Shown: positions 9,839 to 30,423 of the stretch, piece after piece | How positions within the stretch are numbered: the stretch's first letter is position 1 | How the letters are laid out: each line of letters opens with the position of its first letter | Origin: a virus | Length of the DNA stretch: 33,388 bases | IMG/VR virus record: IMGVR_UViG_3300021440_000639 | Span: 1-33,388 of that record | Strand: one strand, 5' to 3' | Made by a program: the position numbers and the translations under genes | Notes under the pieces: model-generated | Told to the model about the DNA's origin: nothing | The model's database searches: none | Seen by the model: the letters and a program-made list of their open reading frames with translations, nothing else

Positions 9839-10933
9839 TCACGGAGCCGCCGAATAGGTATCCACGGCAATCACGCCGAAGTCGCGGTTGTTGAACCGGG
9901 TTTTCTTCATGCCGAAGATCGTGCCCGCAACCACGGTCGGTTCGTTGCCGTAGTCGTCAACATCTTCTTCCCACATGAAGCGGTTGCCGCCCGGAACGCC
10001 GTAGGCCACCACACCGGCCTGCCGCGCCATGAACAGAGCGCGGGAGGCGGGCAGGTTCGCGCCTGCGCCGTAATCCGAGAAGCGGATTACCGATTTGTGC
10101 GAGTGCAGAATCACATTGTTGATCATGCCCAAGCTGCCCTTGAACAGCTTGTTGTCGGAACCTTCTGCCTGCGCGGCGGCCTTTTGCAGTTCAAGCCAGC
10201 CGGTCGTGCCGGTGTTCGTGCGCAGCGAATATTCCTGAAACAGCGACATCAGCAGGACATACCGCTGTTCGCCCTCGATGGAGACGGGAACCATGTTGGC
10301 CGCGTCGGGGTCCAGTGCCCGGATCATTCCCGCGTTGGTGTTGATCTTTTCGATCAGGTCGCGCGACATGATGTCGGTCGAAACCATGGAGGCCTTGGAA
10401 GTTGCCACGCCGCCATAGACAAGGTGCTGCGCATCCGGGGCTTGCAGGGCATTGGTCGCAAAGCCGGTGTAATCGGTGTCCTCGTAGAAGTCCTGGTTGA
10501 TGCCACGCGCACCGGACAGATAGATGAACGTGATCTGGTCCATGTATTCGGCCCAGTAGTCCGAGAGGCGGTCCTTGGCGATCTTGCGCAGGTCATGCGC
10601 CGTGCGCTTGCGGGTCATCCGGCCACCAGCCGAAACGCTGTGACGGATTTGGTCGATGGTCACGCTGTCGGTGTAGAACCGCAGGTTTTCTTCGCGGCCC
10701 TTGATCCGGTTGTCGCCGGTGGTGGGCTTGCCCTTGAGTTGGACCGACAGGTCGAACGACACGGTGTCACCGGCGTCCGATTCCAGTTCGGTTTTCTGGT
10801 GGATGATGGCGTTGTCACCGGTGCCGATGAACTTCTTCTGGAAGTAGGACTTGGACAGAGCGTCCACGGCCAGAAGGTTTGCCCACCGTTTTTGAGCGCG
10901 CGGATCGCCAAACGGAATGACAGTCTGGGACAT
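9839..10933 (-). CDS. Major capsid protein, N4-gp56 family
   Basis: 364 residues; GAGGT lies 6 bases before the ATG. Features of this HK97-fold capsid family are visible: a short N-terminus (MSQTVIPFGDPRAQKRWANL), the early GDNAIIHQKTELESDAGDTV segment, the RHSVSAGGRMTRKRTAHDLR helix region and YLSGARGINQDF, then strand-rich domains ending GVIAVDTYSAAP. Length fits the family. It forms the icosahedral shell, assembled on the scaffold-like protein encoded two genes upstream. A CsrA-like gene and a hairpin lie immediately before its leader, suggesting post-transcriptional control. Confidence is high from several matching segments. Confidence 0.88.
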   Translation of the reverse strand: MSQTVIPFGDPRAQKRWANLLAVDALSKSYFQKKFIGTGDNAIIHQKTELESDAGDTVSFDLSVQLKGKPTTGDNRIKGREENLRFYTDSVTIDQIRHSVSAGGRMTRKRTAHDLRKIAKDRLSDYWAEYMDQITFIYLSGARGINQDFYEDTDYTGFATNALQAPDAQHLVYGGVATSKASMVSTDIMSRDLIEKINTNAGMIRALDPDAANMVPVSIEGEQRYVLLMSLFQEYSLRTNTGTTGWLELQKAAAQAEGSDNKLFKGSLGMINNVILHSHKSVIRFSDYGAGANLPASRALFMARQAGVVAYGVPGGNRFMWEEDVDDYGNEPTVVAGTIFGMKKTRFNNRDFGVIAVDTYSAAP

Positions 10934-10991
10934 TTTGATACCTCATGCAGAGAAAAGCTTGAGGCACATCATGCGCCGGGGTGTGGGTGCA

Positions 10992-11043
10992 TCCTACCAC
11001 CTATGGTATGCACTTGAAAAGGGGGCAGCTATAGGTGGTAGGA
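10992..11043 (-). promoter_or_regulatory. Inverted repeat in the major capsid mRNA leader
   Basis: A perfect 13-base inverted repeat (arms 10992-11004 and 11031-11043, 26-base loop). On the minus strand the first arm contains the last codons and stop of the CsrA-like gene, and the second arm ends in UAGGAU, about 60 bases before the capsid start. The 3' arm holds the RGGAUG core typical of CsrA sites. No T-run follows either arm, so it is not a classic terminator. I infer a regulatory RNA hairpin. Confidence 0.55.
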
Positions 11044-11220
11044 CTCGGGGAGTTCGCGCACCGGTTCCGATGCGCGCTCGATTTTTTGCAGGTTGATGTT
11101 GCGGTTTTCAGGGGCGGAAATGGCCAGCCGCAACACGCCTGATGTTGCTGCCTTGCAGTCGAGAAACACATCATCCCCTATGGCGATGCGATCCCCGGCT
11201 TTCAATTTCAACACCAGCAT
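11029..11220 (-). CDS. CsrA-like translational regulator
   Basis: 63 residues with GGGAG 7 bases before the ATG. The sequence lines up along its whole core with CsrA/RsmA: MLVLKLKAGDRIAIGDDVFL (CsrA: ML.L....GE...IGD.V), then a turn, then VLRLAISAPENRNINLQKIERA (CsrA: V.IGI.AP....V.R.EI). CsrA dimers bind GGA in RNA hairpin loops near ribosome sites to repress or stabilise messages. Some expected residues differ (the R before the first GD/GE, and the H/R of V.R.E), so binding specificity may have changed. It sits between scaffold and capsid genes; the stop lies within the hairpin of the capsid leader. A role in tuning capsid expression or altering host messages is inferred. Confidence 0.7.
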   Translation of the reverse strand: MLVLKLKAGDRIAIGDDVFLDCKAATSGVLRLAISAPENRNINLQKIERASEPVRELPESYHL

Positions 11221-11248: not shown

Positions 11249-12202
11249 TCAGTAGATCGACGCGCCATAGGCCTCGCGCTCGGCGGGCGACATGCGCGAC
11301 AGGATGGCCTCTTTCTGATCCGGGCTTGCCCGGTCCAGCATCGCATCGAGGGCCTGGGCGCGGGACTCGCCTCCAAGCGCACCGTTGTCCGCAGCGGATG
11401 GGATGCGCGCCAAGGTGATCGGCGGTGTGGGCCGCTGCGCTTGGGGCTGGGCGGCCTGCTTCTGCGCTGGTTTCGGGTCGGCCGCAGCCTTGCGGGCTGG
11501 TGCCGCAAGTGCCGGGTTTCCGGTGGCGTCGGCATAGTTGCGCGCCGCGATCTGCAACTGCCGGTCAAAAGGCAGATTTGCCATGGGGCTGTCTGCGCGC
11601 GTCACCGCCATGACGTGCTTGTTGAACGCTTCGACATGCGCGGTCGAGAACAAGACGGGATTGCTGGACTTGAATGCCGCAACAGAGGCATTCCAGCGGG
11701 CGTCCTCCTTCTTGGCGACTTCGGCGGCCTGCTCTTGCAGGATTTCCAGCTTGGCCTCCACGCGGCCAGCCTGACGGGCCACGCGGTCAATCTCGCGGGC
11801 ATATTCCTCGTCGCCTATTTCCCCATCCTGAAAGCGGCTGTCCAGCGCCTCTTTTTCAGAGGCAAACGTGGCGAGTTGCGCCTCAAGCGTAGATGGGTCG
11901 CCGATCTGGACCGCCTGCGGAGCGGACTCGGCGGCGGGTTGGGCCGCGTCGCCAGTGGCATCCATCGCATCCGGGGCGTCGTCGGCCTCGTCGTCGTAGG
12001 TGTCAGGGACGGAAAGATCATCTTCGAGGAAGGCGCGTTCGTCGTCCGACAGCAGCGACGGGTCAATGCGTTCTTCGGCGGGCGGAGTGTTGTCGAGCGT
12101 GGACTTGCCTTCGGGAAGGCCTGCCTCTTGCTCGAAATCCGGCGTTTCGCCGGTGTCAGTGAAGTCAATATCAGGATTTTGGGTCGCTACATCTTGCGGC
12201 AT
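11249..12202 (-). CDS. Scaffolding-like protein
   Basis: 317 residues, strongly acidic in the first 100 (DDERAFLEDD, TYDDEADDAPDAMDATGD), a long coiled coil around residues 105-175 (LEAQLATFASEKEALDSRF, EARWNASVAAFK), then an Ala/Pro/Gln-rich linker (KPAQKQAAQPQAQ) and a short helical C-terminus (REAYGASIY). This architecture, and its place between portal and capsid genes, match phage scaffold proteins that direct shell assembly and then leave. No protease domain is visible. The function is inferred from context and composition. Confidence 0.7.
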   Translation of the reverse strand: MPQDVATQNPDIDFTDTGETPDFEQEAGLPEGKSTLDNTPPAEERIDPSLLSDDERAFLEDDLSVPDTYDDEADDAPDAMDATGDAAQPAAESAPQAVQIGDPSTLEAQLATFASEKEALDSRFQDGEIGDEEYAREIDRVARQAGRVEAKLEILQEQAAEVAKKEDARWNASVAAFKSSNPVLFSTAHVEAFNKHVMAVTRADSPMANLPFDRQLQIAARNYADATGNPALAAPARKAAADPKPAQKQAAQPQAQRPTPPITLARIPSAADNGALGGESRAQALDAMLDRASPDQKEAILSRMSPAEREAYGASIY

Positions 12203-12214
12203 GGGTCGTCTCCG

Positions 12215-14464
12215 TCAGGGTTGGGGTGGAAGGGAGGGTGAAGCGGGGTTGAAGGGGGGGTGAACGGCAGCGGGTGCCGTCTCACCTTCGGCCATTTCTT
12301 CCGGGTTGGGGTGGGCCGTCGCAAAACCGGCGTGATCCAACAGCCGGTCGGCCACGGGAACGGATTGCGGCACGGAAATGACGGCAAGGGCGGCTTCCAG
12401 CGCCGATTTCAGCGCCGACATGCGGTCCAGAGGCAAGCCCTCCATGACCTTCTGGGCGTCAGCGCCAGCCTTTTCGGCTTGCGCGGCCTTCAACTTGGCC
12501 TCGTTCTCCATCTTGGCGATTTCGGCCATGGCACCGCGCTTCTGCATGGCGTCGGCCTCGGCCTTGGCTTGCTCCTGCGCCATTTCCTCGGGAGACTTCG
12601 GAGCGTTCGGGTCTGCATCCGGGTCTTTCATGCCTGTGATCTGGCGAATCCGCTTCACGATTTCCTCGCGGTTCGGCAATTCGTCCATGCCTTCGGCGAC
12701 AAGATCGAGGATTGCCATGACCACTTGCGGCTGGCCGGGGGCGACGCGGGCGACAAACTCCATCAGGGCTTCCACGCCAGCCTGCCGCATGGTTGCGTGC
12801 CATGACTGTTCGGAAATGATGAAATCCGCTTTCGTGCGGGTGATGTCGTTCTCGGGCGTGTCGTTGATGTTGATATACTGCGGGTTCCCGCGTTGATCCG
12901 TGATCCTGAACGACTTCTGCTCGGACATGAATTGCTCGGTGAGGGAGAGCATCTTCTCGCCGTGAATCTTGCGGGCGAAGCGCAGGTTGTCGAAGGGTTC
13001 GGCGGTGGCAAGCGCCCCCTGATCCTGCCGGGCCACGATGGCCTTTCCAGACACGGCATTGGTGGTGCGGCCAAGGCTTTCATCGGTGACGCCTGACTGT
13101 TGCTGCACCATCTGGATCATGCGCGACATCAGGTCCAGATGGGCAGGCGCAAGATCGCGGTCCACGTTCATTTCGAGACGCTTGCCGGGGTTCACGACGA
13201 TGATCGCGTCGGGGCGGGCGGCTTCTTCCTCGTATTGCTCAAGGTCGTCAACTGCGCCCTTTTCCATGATGGTCTTGTTTGTCGCCAGCACATATTGGGC
13301 CTTGGACGCAGACTTGTTGATGTGTGTTTGCAGGTCGCGCATTCCACGGATCAAGCCATACGGAGAACCGTCAGAGGCCTTGCGGTAGCAGATGATCGGC
13401 GTGAACGGATAGCGGTTGTGGCGATATGGCGACGGCGCGAGATAGAGCAGCCCGGCAGTCGTGAACAGCGAAACGAAGGTCCGCATCTTCACACGCTTGT
13501 GGATCGAGGCGCGGCCTGCATCCACGTCGCGCAGATGCCCCTCGGAAAACTCGTCGAAAATCTCGCCAGAGAAATCCCCGCCGACGATCACGCGAGTCAT
13601 TGCGGGCTTGCGGAACCATCCTTCGATCAGGCGCACGCGATCTCGGGAGGTTGCCGACATGCCGGGCGCAGAGCGGGCCGTGGAGGAGGCGGTGTTCTCC
13701 CACTCGTCCATGGCCTCGTCGCCGAATTGGTCGAGAGAGGCACCAAAGTTCAGCGAGGATGCCGCTGCGGTGGTGATCATTTCCTCTCGATCCGGCGTCA
13801 GCGCCACCGCGTTGTCGATGTCGGTCCATTTTGTGCGGAACATGAACCGGCCATCGCTAAAGTCGGGTGCGTTCGCCAGACTATCCCACAGAATGTTGCG
13901 CCAGCTTTCGGCGCGGTCATAGATCGGCTCCCCGCCTTCATCATCCGCCTGCCATCCGGCTTCCAGCCATCCAATCCCGCACTTCACAGCGGATGCAAAG
14001 GCCTGCGAGGACGCAAACTCGCTGTTGTTGGCGTCGGAGAGGTATTTCAGCAGTTCGGTCTTGCGCTCGGCGGCGGCGGAGCCTTCCTTGCGCCGCGCGA
14101 GGATCTTGTAATCCGTGCGCCCGCGCCGTTCCGTTCCAATCAACCAGTTCAGGGTGGTGGAAATCACGTTGTAGTTGGTCGCCATCTGGCCGCGCTGCGC
14201 GAGGATGAACTTTTCTTCGTCCGTCCACGGGTCGTTGTCGTAGAAACGCTCGTCCTTCGCCATTTCGGCGCGGTTGCCGGCCTGCTTGTCGAGTTCGGCC
14301 AGGTAGTGACCCAAGAGGTTGGAATGCAGCTTTCGGGACTCGTTCGAGTCGAGGTTGATCTTGCCTTGCACCCCCTGATCTGGGGCGACAACACCGCCCT
14401 GAAAGCGGTCAATCGGGCTATTGGGCCGGTTTGTGCGGGGCGCGGAGGCAATGATGTCAGACAT
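12215..14464 (-). CDS. Portal protein, P22 type
   Basis: 749 residues, in the range of P22-like portals. Visible features: an N-terminal GHYLAELDKQAGNRAEMAKD helix with DERFYDNDPWTDEE, then RGQMATNYNVISTTLNWLIG and RRGRTDYKILAR, characteristic of the P22 portal family; a helical segment near residues 420-470 (DLMSRMIQMVQQQSGVTDESLG); and a long C-terminal helix rich in Ala/Glu/Lys (residues 640-700) that would form the barrel. The dodecameric portal is the DNA channel and binds the terminase. The start overlaps the preceding stop by 8 bases. The last residues are Pro-rich. Confidence 0.88.
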   Translation of the reverse strand: MSDIIASAPRTNRPNSPIDRFQGGVVAPDQGVQGKINLDSNESRKLHSNLLGHYLAELDKQAGNRAEMAKDERFYDNDPWTDEEKFILAQRGQMATNYNVISTTLNWLIGTERRGRTDYKILARRKEGSAAAERKTELLKYLSDANNSEFASSQAFASAVKCGIGWLEAGWQADDEGGEPIYDRAESWRNILWDSLANAPDFSDGRFMFRTKWTDIDNAVALTPDREEMITTAAASSLNFGASLDQFGDEAMDEWENTASSTARSAPGMSATSRDRVRLIEGWFRKPAMTRVIVGGDFSGEIFDEFSEGHLRDVDAGRASIHKRVKMRTFVSLFTTAGLLYLAPSPYRHNRYPFTPIICYRKASDGSPYGLIRGMRDLQTHINKSASKAQYVLATNKTIMEKGAVDDLEQYEEEAARPDAIIVVNPGKRLEMNVDRDLAPAHLDLMSRMIQMVQQQSGVTDESLGRTTNAVSGKAIVARQDQGALATAEPFDNLRFARKIHGEKMLSLTEQFMSEQKSFRITDQRGNPQYININDTPENDITRTKADFIISEQSWHATMRQAGVEALMEFVARVAPGQPQVVMAILDLVAEGMDELPNREEIVKRIRQITGMKDPDADPNAPKSPEEMAQEQAKAEADAMQKRGAMAEIAKMENEAKLKAAQAEKAGADAQKVMEGLPLDRMSALKSALEAALAVISVPQSVPVADRLLDHAGFATAHPNPEEMAEGETAPAAVHPPFNPASPSLPPQP

Positions 14465-14909
14465 CTTCGGTGATCCCGGTTTGGGTGATCTTGCCGGTGT
14501 CGCGGTTCACCATGGTTGCAAAGGCGACTTCCACCTGATCGACGGCAGGCATCGGCGGGCAGGTCAGCAGGTCTTGCAGGTGGTTGCGGACCAGATCGGT
14601 GATCCTGAACAGGTTGCGTGGGTTCATCGGGTCCATGCCAAGCGAAGCGGCAAAGTGAATCGAGGTCGTCGCGCAATGCGCGCCATCGCCGGTGTGTTCA
14701 TCCCACATATAGGCAAGACCAAGCGGAACGATACAAGGGGTGGTGCGTTCCGGGTTGATCTGGTGGAGACTCGGGACGATCACCAGCGCCGGGCTGCGGT
14801 CGTGATGTGTCCACGTCAGATAGACCGTCAGATCGCCGTGGACGAACCGCGCGGCGGTCTTGGAGAGGTCAATCGCCAGCTTCGGCGTGTCGTTGAGTCG
14901 CATATTCAT
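14457..14909 (-). CDS. Conserved small protein between terminase and portal, unknown function
   Basis: 150 residues from the ATG at 14909, overlapping the terminase stop as ATGA. It is a mixed alpha/beta protein (VHGDLTVYLTWTHHDRSPAL then CIVPLGLAYMWDEH and NLFRITDLVRNHLQDLLTCP) without a known motif. Similar small genes sit between terL and portal in other podoviruses. It may be a packaging or head-vertex factor, but nothing in the sequence proves that. Confidence 0.6.
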   Translation of the reverse strand: MNMRLNDTPKLAIDLSKTAARFVHGDLTVYLTWTHHDRSPALVIVPSLHQINPERTTPCIVPLGLAYMWDEHTGDGAHCATTSIHFAASLGMDPMNPRNLFRITDLVRNHLQDLLTCPPMPAVDQVEVAFATMVNRDTGKITQTGITEDV

Positions 14910-16504
14910 AGGACTGAGGCTCCAAAGCGGCCGGAATTGCGGCGGGTGGGACGTGTCTGGGCGTTGACCAGCGCAGGATCGAAACCCTGTGCAAGCTGGC
15001 GCAGGGCGTCGGCGGCCTCGGTGTGCGGGTTGTCCTTGTCGGGTTCATCCGACCAGACCCCGAGCGTCGAGTTCCACTTCTTGCGGTAGAGTGACAGGTG
15101 TTCGATCCCTGCCGCGCAGGCGTCGCGGTCGAACCACAACTGCGAGAAGATCGAGCGAGTGAGGTCGATCCCGTGCTGCAACACCTGAACGCGCGGGACG
15201 ATGTGAAACTTCCAGTCGGGGGCGAGTTCCATCAGCATGTCGAGCGGCGAGGCGATGGTGTTTGCCATCTGCCGGGTCTGCACCGCGTCGTGAGGCAGGA
15301 ACATTCCACCGAACACATAGCCCGTGGCGCGCAGCCGGTTGACGTAATGGGCGTATCCCTCGGACCAGCCCTCCATGAATCCGATGATGCGGTGCTGCAT
15401 CCCGATGTATTGGTGCAGCCAGATCGCGGTGCCGTCGCCAGAACCAATATCCCAGAACGTGTTGACCGGGACGCGGGCGACATGCGGAACCACGGTGATC
15501 CGACCTTCGATGCGGGCGCGGGCCAGTTGCGCCGCGTAGAATGTCCCCTCGGTGGACCGTTGCCAGCATTCTTCGGAGGTTGACGGCCATTCCTGCCACA
15601 TCTTTTCGACATCGCCGGAAAGGTCGGTTTCCCTCTTGGAGACGTAGAAAGCCCGCTGCCAGTCATCCAGCTTGACGCCTTCCGACTTCTCGATCTTGTC
15701 GAAGTAGGCGTGATCCGCCTGGGTGATGCGGACAGTGGCCGGGTCGAGGCGATATTTCGGCTCCTTGAACCACGGGAAGAAGAAGAACCGGTATTCCGCC
15801 TTGCTGAGTTGCTTGCGCTCCTGTTTCAGCGCCTCGGCTCGGCTGGCGATCTTGTAGAACTCGCCCTCCTGCCCCTCTGCGGTGGACTCGATGACCGCCA
15901 CGCCATCAATCGGCACAGCTTGCAGCGATCCGGTGACAATCTCGCGCGCCTTCTTGGGGCTTTCCTTGCCGATCTTGCCCATTTCCGAGACATGCAGCCG
16001 GTGGATGGTGCCAGACCGCATCGAGGTCGCCACGCGGACAGTGCTGTTGTTGTTGGCGAAGCGGATCATCTGGCCGGTGTCGTTCGCCAGCGGGTGTTCG
16101 GCGCGCAATGACTCTGGCATGTTGTCGTAGGTGAACTTGATCTTGTCCGCGAAGATGGTTTCGGCGTCGGGAAGGGTGTGGGCAATGATGCCGCACCGCT
16201 GTTCGGCGTTGAACATCGCGTGATCGAAGGTGTTGATGCAGGCGGCGGTGGTGATCCCAAGCTGCCGCGCCTTCAACACCACGTTGCGATTGTGCAGGTT
16301 CAGCAGGAACTCTGTCTGCGATGCGTTGGGGATGAACGGCATCGAGGTCGTCGGCTGGCCTTCCTCCCCCTTGACGATGATCCGGTAAAGCGCCCCTGAA
16401 AACAGACGCCAGCGCCATGAGGCGAGGCACATCGCCAACTCGGCCTCGGTCGTCGGCACGAATGACGGGTCTATCTCGACTGGCTCGGGCGGAAGGATGC
16501 TCAT
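14906..16504 (-). CDS. terL: Terminase large subunit (packaging ATPase/nuclease)
   Basis: 532 residues. The ATPase domain shows a Walker A-type KARQLGITT at 78-86, a Walker B-type HRLHVSEMG at 168-176 with E174 as catalytic acid, and a coupling motif IESTAEG at 205-211. The nuclease domain shows WDIGSGDGTAIW with D352, then GFMEGW (E378) and PHDAV (D406), a plausible RNase H-like metal triad. It pumps and cuts DNA at the portal. It overlaps the small terminase start-stop by 4 bases and the next gene likewise. All core motifs are in order. Confidence 0.9.
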   Translation of the reverse strand: MSILPPEPVEIDPSFVPTTEAELAMCLASWRWRLFSGALYRIIVKGEEGQPTTSMPFIPNASQTEFLLNLHNRNVVLKARQLGITTAACINTFDHAMFNAEQRCGIIAHTLPDAETIFADKIKFTYDNMPESLRAEHPLANDTGQMIRFANNNSTVRVATSMRSGTIHRLHVSEMGKIGKESPKKAREIVTGSLQAVPIDGVAVIESTAEGQEGEFYKIASRAEALKQERKQLSKAEYRFFFFPWFKEPKYRLDPATVRITQADHAYFDKIEKSEGVKLDDWQRAFYVSKRETDLSGDVEKMWQEWPSTSEECWQRSTEGTFYAAQLARARIEGRITVVPHVARVPVNTFWDIGSGDGTAIWLHQYIGMQHRIIGFMEGWSEGYAHYVNRLRATGYVFGGMFLPHDAVQTRQMANTIASPLDMLMELAPDWKFHIVPRVQVLQHGIDLTRSIFSQLWFDRDACAAGIEHLSLYRKKWNSTLGVWSDEPDKDNPHTEAADALRQLAQGFDPALVNAQTRPTRRNSGRFGASVL

Positions 16505-28053: not shown

Positions 28054-28122
28054 GGCCGGGATGGTTCCTCCCTGAACCCGGCCCAACTTGCCGCTGCGCC
28101 ACCCTCCCTTGGCGCAGCGGCA
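28054..28122 (+). terminator. Two consecutive hairpins in the early leader
   Basis: The first pairs GGCCGGG (28054-28060) with CCCGGCC (28077-28083). The second pairs TGCCGCTGCGCCA (28089-28101) with TGGCGCAGCGGCA (28110-28122), 13 perfect base pairs, followed by CTTTTCC. They fill the 99-base gap before the ATG at 28141. The second is a good terminator or attenuator; read-through control by a phage factor is possible. Confidence 0.65.
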
Positions 28123-29251: not shown

Positions 29252-30423
29252 ATGATCATTTTGATGGGAATACCGGAGAGGTTATCGCCCTGATGGGCGA
29301 CCGCTCCACCGAAGGGCAGAGCATCATGGTGCAGATGGCTCAAGCGGAATTGAACCAGTCTGTCACCACGGCGCGGGCTTTCCCGCGTTCGATCAAGCTG
29401 GCGGTGGATCGCATCAAGTCGCTGGCCACCCTGGACGCCGTTGCGGCGCAAGAGTGCGTCTATGCGCTGCCTCGCGGCGGCAAACCCATTCGTGGCCCGT
29501 CTGTCCGCTTCGCCGAGATTGTGGCCGCGATGTATGGCAACTGCCATGTCGGAAGCCGAGTGGTCGCGGTGGATCGCGCGGAAAAGGTGGTGGTGGCCGA
29601 GGGCGTGTTTCACGACCTCGAAACCGGCATGAAGCGTGTCGCGCAGGTTCAGCGCCGGATCAGCGACAAAAACGGCAAGATATTCAACGACGACATGATT
29701 GCCGTTACCGGCAACGCCGCGTGTTCGGTCGCTATGCGGGAGGCCGTCTTGAAGGGCGTCCCCAAGGCGATCTGGCGGTCTGCCTATGAAGCTGCGGAAA
29801 TGATCAACTTCGGGAAGGCCGAGACTCTGGCGGTTCGCCGCGACAAGGCGATTGCGGCATTTGGTGGTTTTGGCGTGACCCCGGATCAAATCTTCGCCGC
29901 GCTGGAATTGGGCGGCCTGGACGACATTGGCCTTGAGGAAATTGCCACTCTGACCGCCATGTTTTTTGCAATCAAGAACGAAGAAGCGACGGTTGAGAGC
30001 TACTTTCCGCCGAAAGCCACCGATCCCCTTTCCGCCCGTGCTGCGGCGCGCGGCGTGACAAAGGCAAAACCCGCCGAATCGGCCAAGATCGGTGGTTCCG
30101 CCGCAACGGCGATAAATGCCCCTGCTGCGACCGATGACGATGCCGAGGCTGACGCGGCAAAGGAGGTTGAGGCCCAGCCCGAGCAGAAGCATGAAGAACT
30201 GGACCAGACCCAAACAAAGGCTCTGATCGTCAGCCCCAAGTCGAAGATGATTTTCGACAGCCTCATGCGCGACGTTCAGGGCATGGCCCAGGGTGACGGA
30301 ATCCGTCAGTTGCGGGAGTTCTTCGCGGCGGAAATTGCGGAATTGAGGGCCGAAGCGCCCGATCTTCATGCAGAGTTTGTCTCCGCCTGTGAGGCCCGCG
30401 CCAATGACATTGCCGGTCAATAG
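29248..30423 (+). CDS. Conserved phage protein, possible recombination factor
   Basis: 391 residues. The first 250 are a globular domain seen in many temperate phages: TARAFPRSIKLAVDRIKSLA, YALPRGGKPIRGPSVRFAEI, YGNCHVGSRVVAVDRAEKVV, MKRVAQVQRRISDKNGKIFN, DDMIAVTGNAACSVAMREAV. A basic/acidic tail follows. I do not recognise a proved function. Its partner upstream and its place in the early region resemble single-strand annealing recombinase modules, which is inference from context only. It overlaps its neighbours at both ends. Confidence 0.55.
   Translation: MNDHFDGNTGEVIALMGDRSTEGQSIMVQMAQAELNQSVTTARAFPRSIKLAVDRIKSLATLDAVAAQECVYALPRGGKPIRGPSVRFAEIVAAMYGNCHVGSRVVAVDRAEKVVVAEGVFHDLETGMKRVAQVQRRISDKNGKIFNDDMIAVTGNAACSVAMREAVLKGVPKAIWRSAYEAAEMINFGKAETLAVRRDKAIAAFGGFGVTPDQIFAALELGGLDDIGLEEIATLTAMFFAIKNEEATVESYFPPKATDPLSARAAARGVTKAKPAESAKIGGSAATAINAPAATDDDAEADAAKEVEAQPEQKHEELDQTQTKALIVSPKSKMIFDSLMRDVQGMAQGDGIRQLREFFAAEIAELRAEAPDLHAEFVSACEARANDIAGQ

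Follow-up and report, generated by a model that had tools for sequence, protein, structure and literature searches.

What use does a phage make of a CsrA-like protein when the gene for it stands directly ahead of the gene for its major capsid protein? This question is raised by the window, a stretch of 33,388 nucleotides which was taken from an IMG/VR virus record and carries its structural genes on the minus strand. These include a terminase gene (14906-16504), a P22-like portal gene (12215-14464), a gene of phrog_8246 with no known function (11249-12202), the csrA-like gene coding for the proposed regulator of 63 amino acids (11029-11220), and the major capsid gene (9839-10933), which was identified by Pfam Phage_capsid_3 with 226 bits and is the proposed target. 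The gene at 11249-12202 is designated scaffold by its position between portal and capsid alone; it lies upstream of csrA and probably shares one transcript with it.

The same gene at the same position is represented by JC1 gp47, CSP3 orf23 and BcepMigl gp50 (PHROG 8397 and 9500). It was reported as a moron in JC1, where one CsrA peptide was found in virions (PMC9144972), and in CSP3 (PMC10269572), and phage csrA genes were also listed in a survey which noted hosts without a chromosomal csrA (PMC7366521). In the parts of these accounts that were compared, the gene is treated as a moron or as a carbon storage gene and no target is proposed. A first-pass annotation of the window had suggested that the protein acts on a hairpin formed by the end of its own gene and the capsid leader, or that it diverts host messages. 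Diversion of host messages is less likely as a main role, given that B. cepacia and B. cenocepacia, which are hosts of relatives, and S. meliloti were reported to be without a chromosomal csrA (PMC7366521).

The identification of a CsrA-like protein encoded between the scaffold-position and capsid genes was confirmed by a match to the Pfam CsrA profile (PF02599) with 33.9 bits, above the curated cut-off of 27. A profile of the phage CsrA proteins retrieved 2jpp with E = 1.2e-14. The AlphaFold monomer of the window protein (pLDDT 88.6) agrees with this assignment, in that its 15 best PDB matches are all of the CsrA/RsmA/RsmE type, with rmsd values mostly of about 1.0-1.4 Å, and strands 1 and 5 are unpaired in the model, as would be expected if they swap in a domain-swapped homodimer. 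In the profile alignment, position 44 (E. coli numbering) is occupied by Leu, and the candidate target loop described below reads AUGAU and contains no GGA. Arg44 has been described as essential for RNA binding by CsrA (PMC7366521). Fold and profile place the window protein in the CsrA superfamily. Both Arg44 and a GGA target were looked for and neither was found, so it is not classed as a canonical CsrA, and canonical recognition is not to be assumed for it. A tblastn search with the window protein identified no close homologue in phages or viral contigs; relatives were instead gathered by the capsid gene and by profile searches among viral contigs, bacterial genomes and named phages.

The hairpin proposed earlier is based on a perfect 13-bp inverted repeat, TCCTACCACCTAT (11031-11043, minus strand) and ATAGGTGGTAGGA (10992-11004, minus strand), with a spacer of 26 nt. 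As had been stated, its 5' arm is formed by the end of the csrA-like gene, namely the last four sense codons and the T of the stop codon. The TAGGATG word in the other arm is likewise present, at 10990-10996; its reading as a CsrA site could not be upheld, because its GGA sits inside the duplex arm and the hairpin is not conserved. The window contains two perfect 13-mer repeats with loops of up to 60 nt, where 0.05 would be expected by dinucleotide shuffling; a count of two was reached in 1 of 100 shuffles. The local fold at the repeat has z = -4.3. The second such repeat (28089-28122, 8-nt loop) lies in the other arm of the window and is unrelated to csrA. Neither arm of the repeat next to csrA is conserved; the repeat is known from the window only and was absent from every relative examined, so that the regulatory hairpin failed the test of conservation which the first-pass annotation had itself named. 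Among 21 leaders with a TGGTA motif, that of the window included, the strongest inverted repeat between csrA and the conserved hairpin P1 differs in the relatives or is missing. An intrinsic-terminator-like hairpin was identified after csrA and before the capsid promoter in leaders L008, L009, L146, L078 and L090, in the first three at the place of the repeat, and the capsid gene is therefore probably transcribed on its own in these phages.

The 3' arm of the repeat falls on CATAnnTGGTAkG, a promoter-like motif which is conserved across the subclade, and overlaps a putative -10 box within this motif, TAGGAT (10991-10996, minus strand), which matches the place of the -10 boxes of the relatives, 19-25 nt upstream of P1. 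The start of the capsid transcript is predicted at about 10984, weakly so for the window itself, whose intergenic region gave no promoter in a scan for the sigma-70 consensus and no intrinsic terminator. A message starting there, past the repeat, would not contain it. The subclade motif, CATATGTGGTA(T/G)G, was found upstream of P1 in the window (10985-11045) and in L064, L105, L111, L116 and L062; it is often palindromic, with the form TACCA-N4-TGGTA in the window, and may be bound by a phage transcription factor. Sometimes a second copy is present about 30 bp upstream (L064, L105 and L116, by eye). The 5' arm of the window repeat resembles such a copy, and the repeat may thus result from a pair of DNA sites instead of RNA; it is probably not the regulatory RNA. 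Most leaders outside the subclade (for example L030, L054 and L177) have a conserved sigma-70-like TTGCnn-N17-(G/C)ATAAT sequence, also 19-25 nt upstream of P1, which places P1 at the 5' end of the late messages.

P1 (10963-10977, minus strand) lies 15 bases downstream of the repeat and is the candidate binding site of the CsrA-like protein. It reads GGCGC-AUGAU-GUGCC, with arms at 10973-10977 and 10963-10967 and the loop at 10968-10972, and falls within a conserved element (10936-10977) which was left unmentioned in the first-pass annotation of 10934-11220. About 100 distinct capsid leaders from Bcep22-like podoviruses (Lessievirus, Ittyvirus, Pavtokvirus, Lastavirus, Parlovirus, PBC5, POI1126, Atu_ph08 and others) were compared, and nearly all carry P1 in the form GCGC-ANGA(N)-GUGC, with the end of its loop about 27-50 nt before the capsid AUG. 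Over 70 distinct sequences, 84.8% of the stem cells are paired and five of the six pairs show changes on both sides (0 of 500 shuffles), while sliding controls gave 16-63%. The conserved G-U pair of the stem is sometimes swapped to U-G. Rfam gave no match at the gathering score in the window or in six relatives. Loops were assigned automatically with six manual corrections (L147, L111, L112, L097, L114 and L029); some loci were duplicated across searches, and tests were run on deduplicated leaders. All evidence on P1, its alternative P2 and csrA is comparative.

No P1 was seen in L117, and the element is degenerate in L158, L161 and L162, with the loops AGAU, AGGU and AUCAA in L161 and L162 (Chitinimonas) and L158 (Ciceribacter). 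The genomes from which L158 and L161 come gave no csrA-like match, as expected if the element decays once the protein is lost. Three outgroup phages, with capsids about 30% identical, have neither the leader P1 nor csrA. In 138 of 175 loci of a redundant set, the capsid gene is preceded by a csrA-like ORF at a distance of no more than 900 nt, and csrA was found elsewhere in the genome in 17 of 20 genomes picked mostly for a non-adjacent csrA, in PBC5 about 30 kb away. PBC5, POI1126, Atu_ph08 and the rhizobial prophages L148-L158 show a rearranged order, with the capsid gene apart from portal and csrA. In most relatives csrA adjoins the capsid gene, and with P1 as a conserved, covarying leader hairpin the reading in which CsrA acts on the capsid leader passed the same test of conservation.

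The 3' strand of P1 has a second pairing partner in the Shine-Dalgarno region, with which it forms the alternative hairpin P2 (10936-10968, minus strand; UGUGCCUCA with UGAGGUA(U)CA), which holds the Shine-Dalgarno GAGG (10941-10944) and is the MFE structure of the window capsid leader. As P1 and P2 share positions 10963-10968, the two hairpins exclude each other. For the P2 arms of 50 representatives, the native mean was -14.7 kcal/mol versus -10.5 kcal/mol for swapped arms (0 of 10000 permutations, z = -10), and covariation supports both P1 and P2. Of 98 leaders, 85 are predicted to have P2 as the more stable hairpin and 13 to have a P1 which is as stable or more so; P2 is weak in L035, L163 and L176. 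The predicted unpaired fraction of the ribosome-binding site is 0.50 in the P1 state versus 0.34 in the P2 state, and 0.71 versus 0.41 in the window. The leader of the window thereby has one feature of control of the ymdA type, a hairpin which sequesters the Shine-Dalgarno sequence and is incompatible with the form to be bound.

The link between the protein and P1 is given by residue 44. GGA-type loops are present in 40 of the 83 relatives analysed; in the profile alignment, residue 44 is Arg in 34 of these phages and Lys in three more, and it is Arg in only 3 of the 43 phages with other loops (AUGA, AAGA or similar). On the capsid tree, with the traits coded as binary, the dependent model exceeded the independent one (Pagel; LR 27, chi-square p = 2e-5), and this value was matched in 0 of 120 simulations, the largest being 16.5. 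A joint gain of Arg44 and the GGA loop was found on five branches (p = 3e-5, hypergeometric). In a scan blind to prior knowledge of Arg44, residue 44 was at the top of 120 column/residue tests after phylogenetic correction (26.8, the next being 15.7). Exceptions to the rule are L122, L159, L166, L079, L115 and L176. Pentaloops and hexaloops of the form A(N)GGAX are established CsrA/RsmE sites; structures of RsmE with RNA show AGGAX pentaloops bound and Arg44 stacked on the A of the A(N)GGAX loops (PMC4005645). Because residue 44 tracks the loop across the phages, P1 is very likely recognised by the CsrA-like protein. The earlier suggestion of such a protein acting on a hairpin of the capsid leader is in this respect strongly supported, with P1 and its AUGAU loop as the site in place of the GGAUG hairpin.

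In many genomes, additional copies of P1 were identified 20-45 nt upstream of the start codons of late genes. In 41 partly redundant records, the strict pattern GCGCANGAN{0,1}GTGC was counted 83 times and the reversed control pattern 14 times. Copies precede the endolysin gene (POI1126, Atu_ph08, PBC5, PEp14, ZX1, Itty13 and Skulduggery), genes for DarB-like giant proteins (POI1126, Atu_ph08, PBC5 and IMG genomes), the gene for an internal virion protein (POI1126 gp21), that for the phrog_8003 virion protein (POI1126, Atu_ph08 and Mwe-JY07), and also tail fibre genes. In PBC5 and Atu_ph08, a divergent endolysin gene stands before the capsid gene, and P1 is present in both divergent leaders. 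Within a genome, the loop type is the same in 94% of site pairs versus 50% after shuffling of the site labels, which were assigned by hand (0 of 20000). In JC1 and BcepMigl, the capsid leader is the only qualifying site. The same was found for the window by pattern and stem-loop scans, where a match at 29446-29457 (plus strand) and matches with one mismatch have no suitable start downstream. A scan with relaxed stems gave many stem-loops without downstream starts, which were treated as background. A P1-like word, GCGCAGGACGTGC, is conserved within the DarB-like coding sequence of the Burkholderia phages JC1 (45978) and BcepMigl (47777); it lies outside any leader and is probably incidental.

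A model in which the CsrA-like protein activates late translation by binding P1 and so blocking P2 appears probable to us as a whole. Of its parts, the recognition of P1 is well supported, and we infer the physical binding, the activating sign and the role in timing. The main target of this divergent member of the CsrA superfamily would be a cis element in the late messages of the phage itself, the 5'-proximal P1 with its C-[A-N-G-A-X]-G loop on a GCGC/GUGC stem. Being at the extreme 5' end, P1 would form first during transcription and would yield to P2 unless bound; the unbound message would fold into P2, with its Shine-Dalgarno sequence hidden and little translation. The regulator would be expressed from the upstream packaging and scaffold part of the late region, and the protein on P1 would prevent P2 and free the ribosome-binding site. 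The capsid protein, and in many relatives also lysis, tail, DarB-like and internal virion proteins, would then be made only after the regulator has built up. As csrA precedes the capsid gene within the late region, this arrangement could delay capsid synthesis and, in the relatives, lysis. P1 is clear of the Shine-Dalgarno sequence and competes with the structure hiding it, so binding should open the site. At ymdA of E. coli, CsrA acts as an activator in that it destabilises a hairpin in which the Shine-Dalgarno sequence is sequestered (PMC7492729). CsrA-dependent opening of this kind is the most economical model for the phage leaders.

The opposite sign, by which bound P1 represses late translation or recruits decay until the protein is titrated, for example into capsids, is possible but doubtful. 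Most characterised CsrA targets are repressed, the coevolution data are silent on the sign, and the one unique CsrA peptide in JC1 virions (PMC9144972) offers a possible titration route; however, P1 lies off the Shine-Dalgarno sequence and competes with the structure that hides it, and without the protein P2 is favoured in 85 of the 98 leaders. It is improbable that P1 and P2 are real but are read by a host protein, the ribosome or an RNase, with the CsrA-like protein acting on host messages or in the virion. The same JC1 peptide could be taken in this sense, as could the retention of P1 without an adjacent csrA in L001 and others, but csrA is encoded elsewhere in 17 of 20 such genomes, the residue which tracks the loop best is the known RNA-contact residue 44, and some hosts are reported without a chromosomal csrA (PMC7366521).

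The 13-bp hairpin, comprising the csrA 3' end and the capsid leader with UAGGAUG as the CsrA site, is perfect, beyond chance and stable in silico, and it contains the GGAUG word. As the regulatory unit it is nevertheless very improbable, since it is missing in the relatives, where an intrinsic terminator is often found in its place (L008, L009, L146), its GGA lies within a duplex arm, and this arm overlaps the promoter-like motif at the -10 position of the relatives. Hardly credible is the reading of GCGCANGANGTGC as a DNA operator or promoter element without RNA structure. It would account for the fixed distance downstream of the -10-like boxes, but not for the conserved G-U wobble, which also occurs as U-G, the single orientation, the covarying P2 partner strand or the loop tracking an RNA-binding residue.

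Compared to known systems, the phage proteins are like CsrA/RsmA/RsmE (PF02599; RsmE structures 2JPP and 2MF0-2MFH) in fold, length and Pfam match, and the loops belong to the A(N)GGAX type with C-G closure, with Arg44 in the GGA-type phages. Unlike the bacterial proteins, they are phage-encoded and tied to phage late leaders, and the window protein and many phage members have lost Arg44 and are paired with AUGA or AAGA loops. The likeness to ymdA of E. coli (PMC7492729) lies in upstream CsrA binding, predicted on the phage side, which acts against a hairpin sequestering the Shine-Dalgarno sequence; in contrast to ymdA, the phage site is a hairpin in its own right which overlaps the sequestering one, it is conserved throughout the phage group and recurs in front of several late genes, and its activating effect is a prediction. 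In the literature compared, which excludes the original Bcep22 paper, no published description of the P1 element or of its regulon was found. Control of a phage's own messages through leader structure is familiar from T4 RegA, gp32 and gp43 and from the MS2 coat protein; those proteins are unrelated and are mostly repressors of their own or early messages. Relative to the moron accounts, a phage target and the coevolution of protein and loop, as judged from sequence comparison, would be new.

The core motif of CsrA sites is thought to be fixed, since it is read by the protein backbone. That this lineage has made CsrA a dedicated master switch of late translation, with each late operon preceded by the element in many genomes, and has altered the recognition code repeatedly, GGA with Arg44 and AUGA or AAGA without it, seems to us about as probable as the contrary. 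Under this proposal, a gene previously classed as a moron acquires a function, and late expression in a widespread group of podoviruses and prophages would depend centrally on post-transcriptional control. Short RNAs and small proteins suffice for a direct test, and the dozens of naturally coevolved CsrA/hairpin pairs, several of them with a changed core motif, allow tests of RNA specificity in the CsrA family. If true, the recoding of CsrA recognition would provide a natural series of matched protein-RNA specificities.
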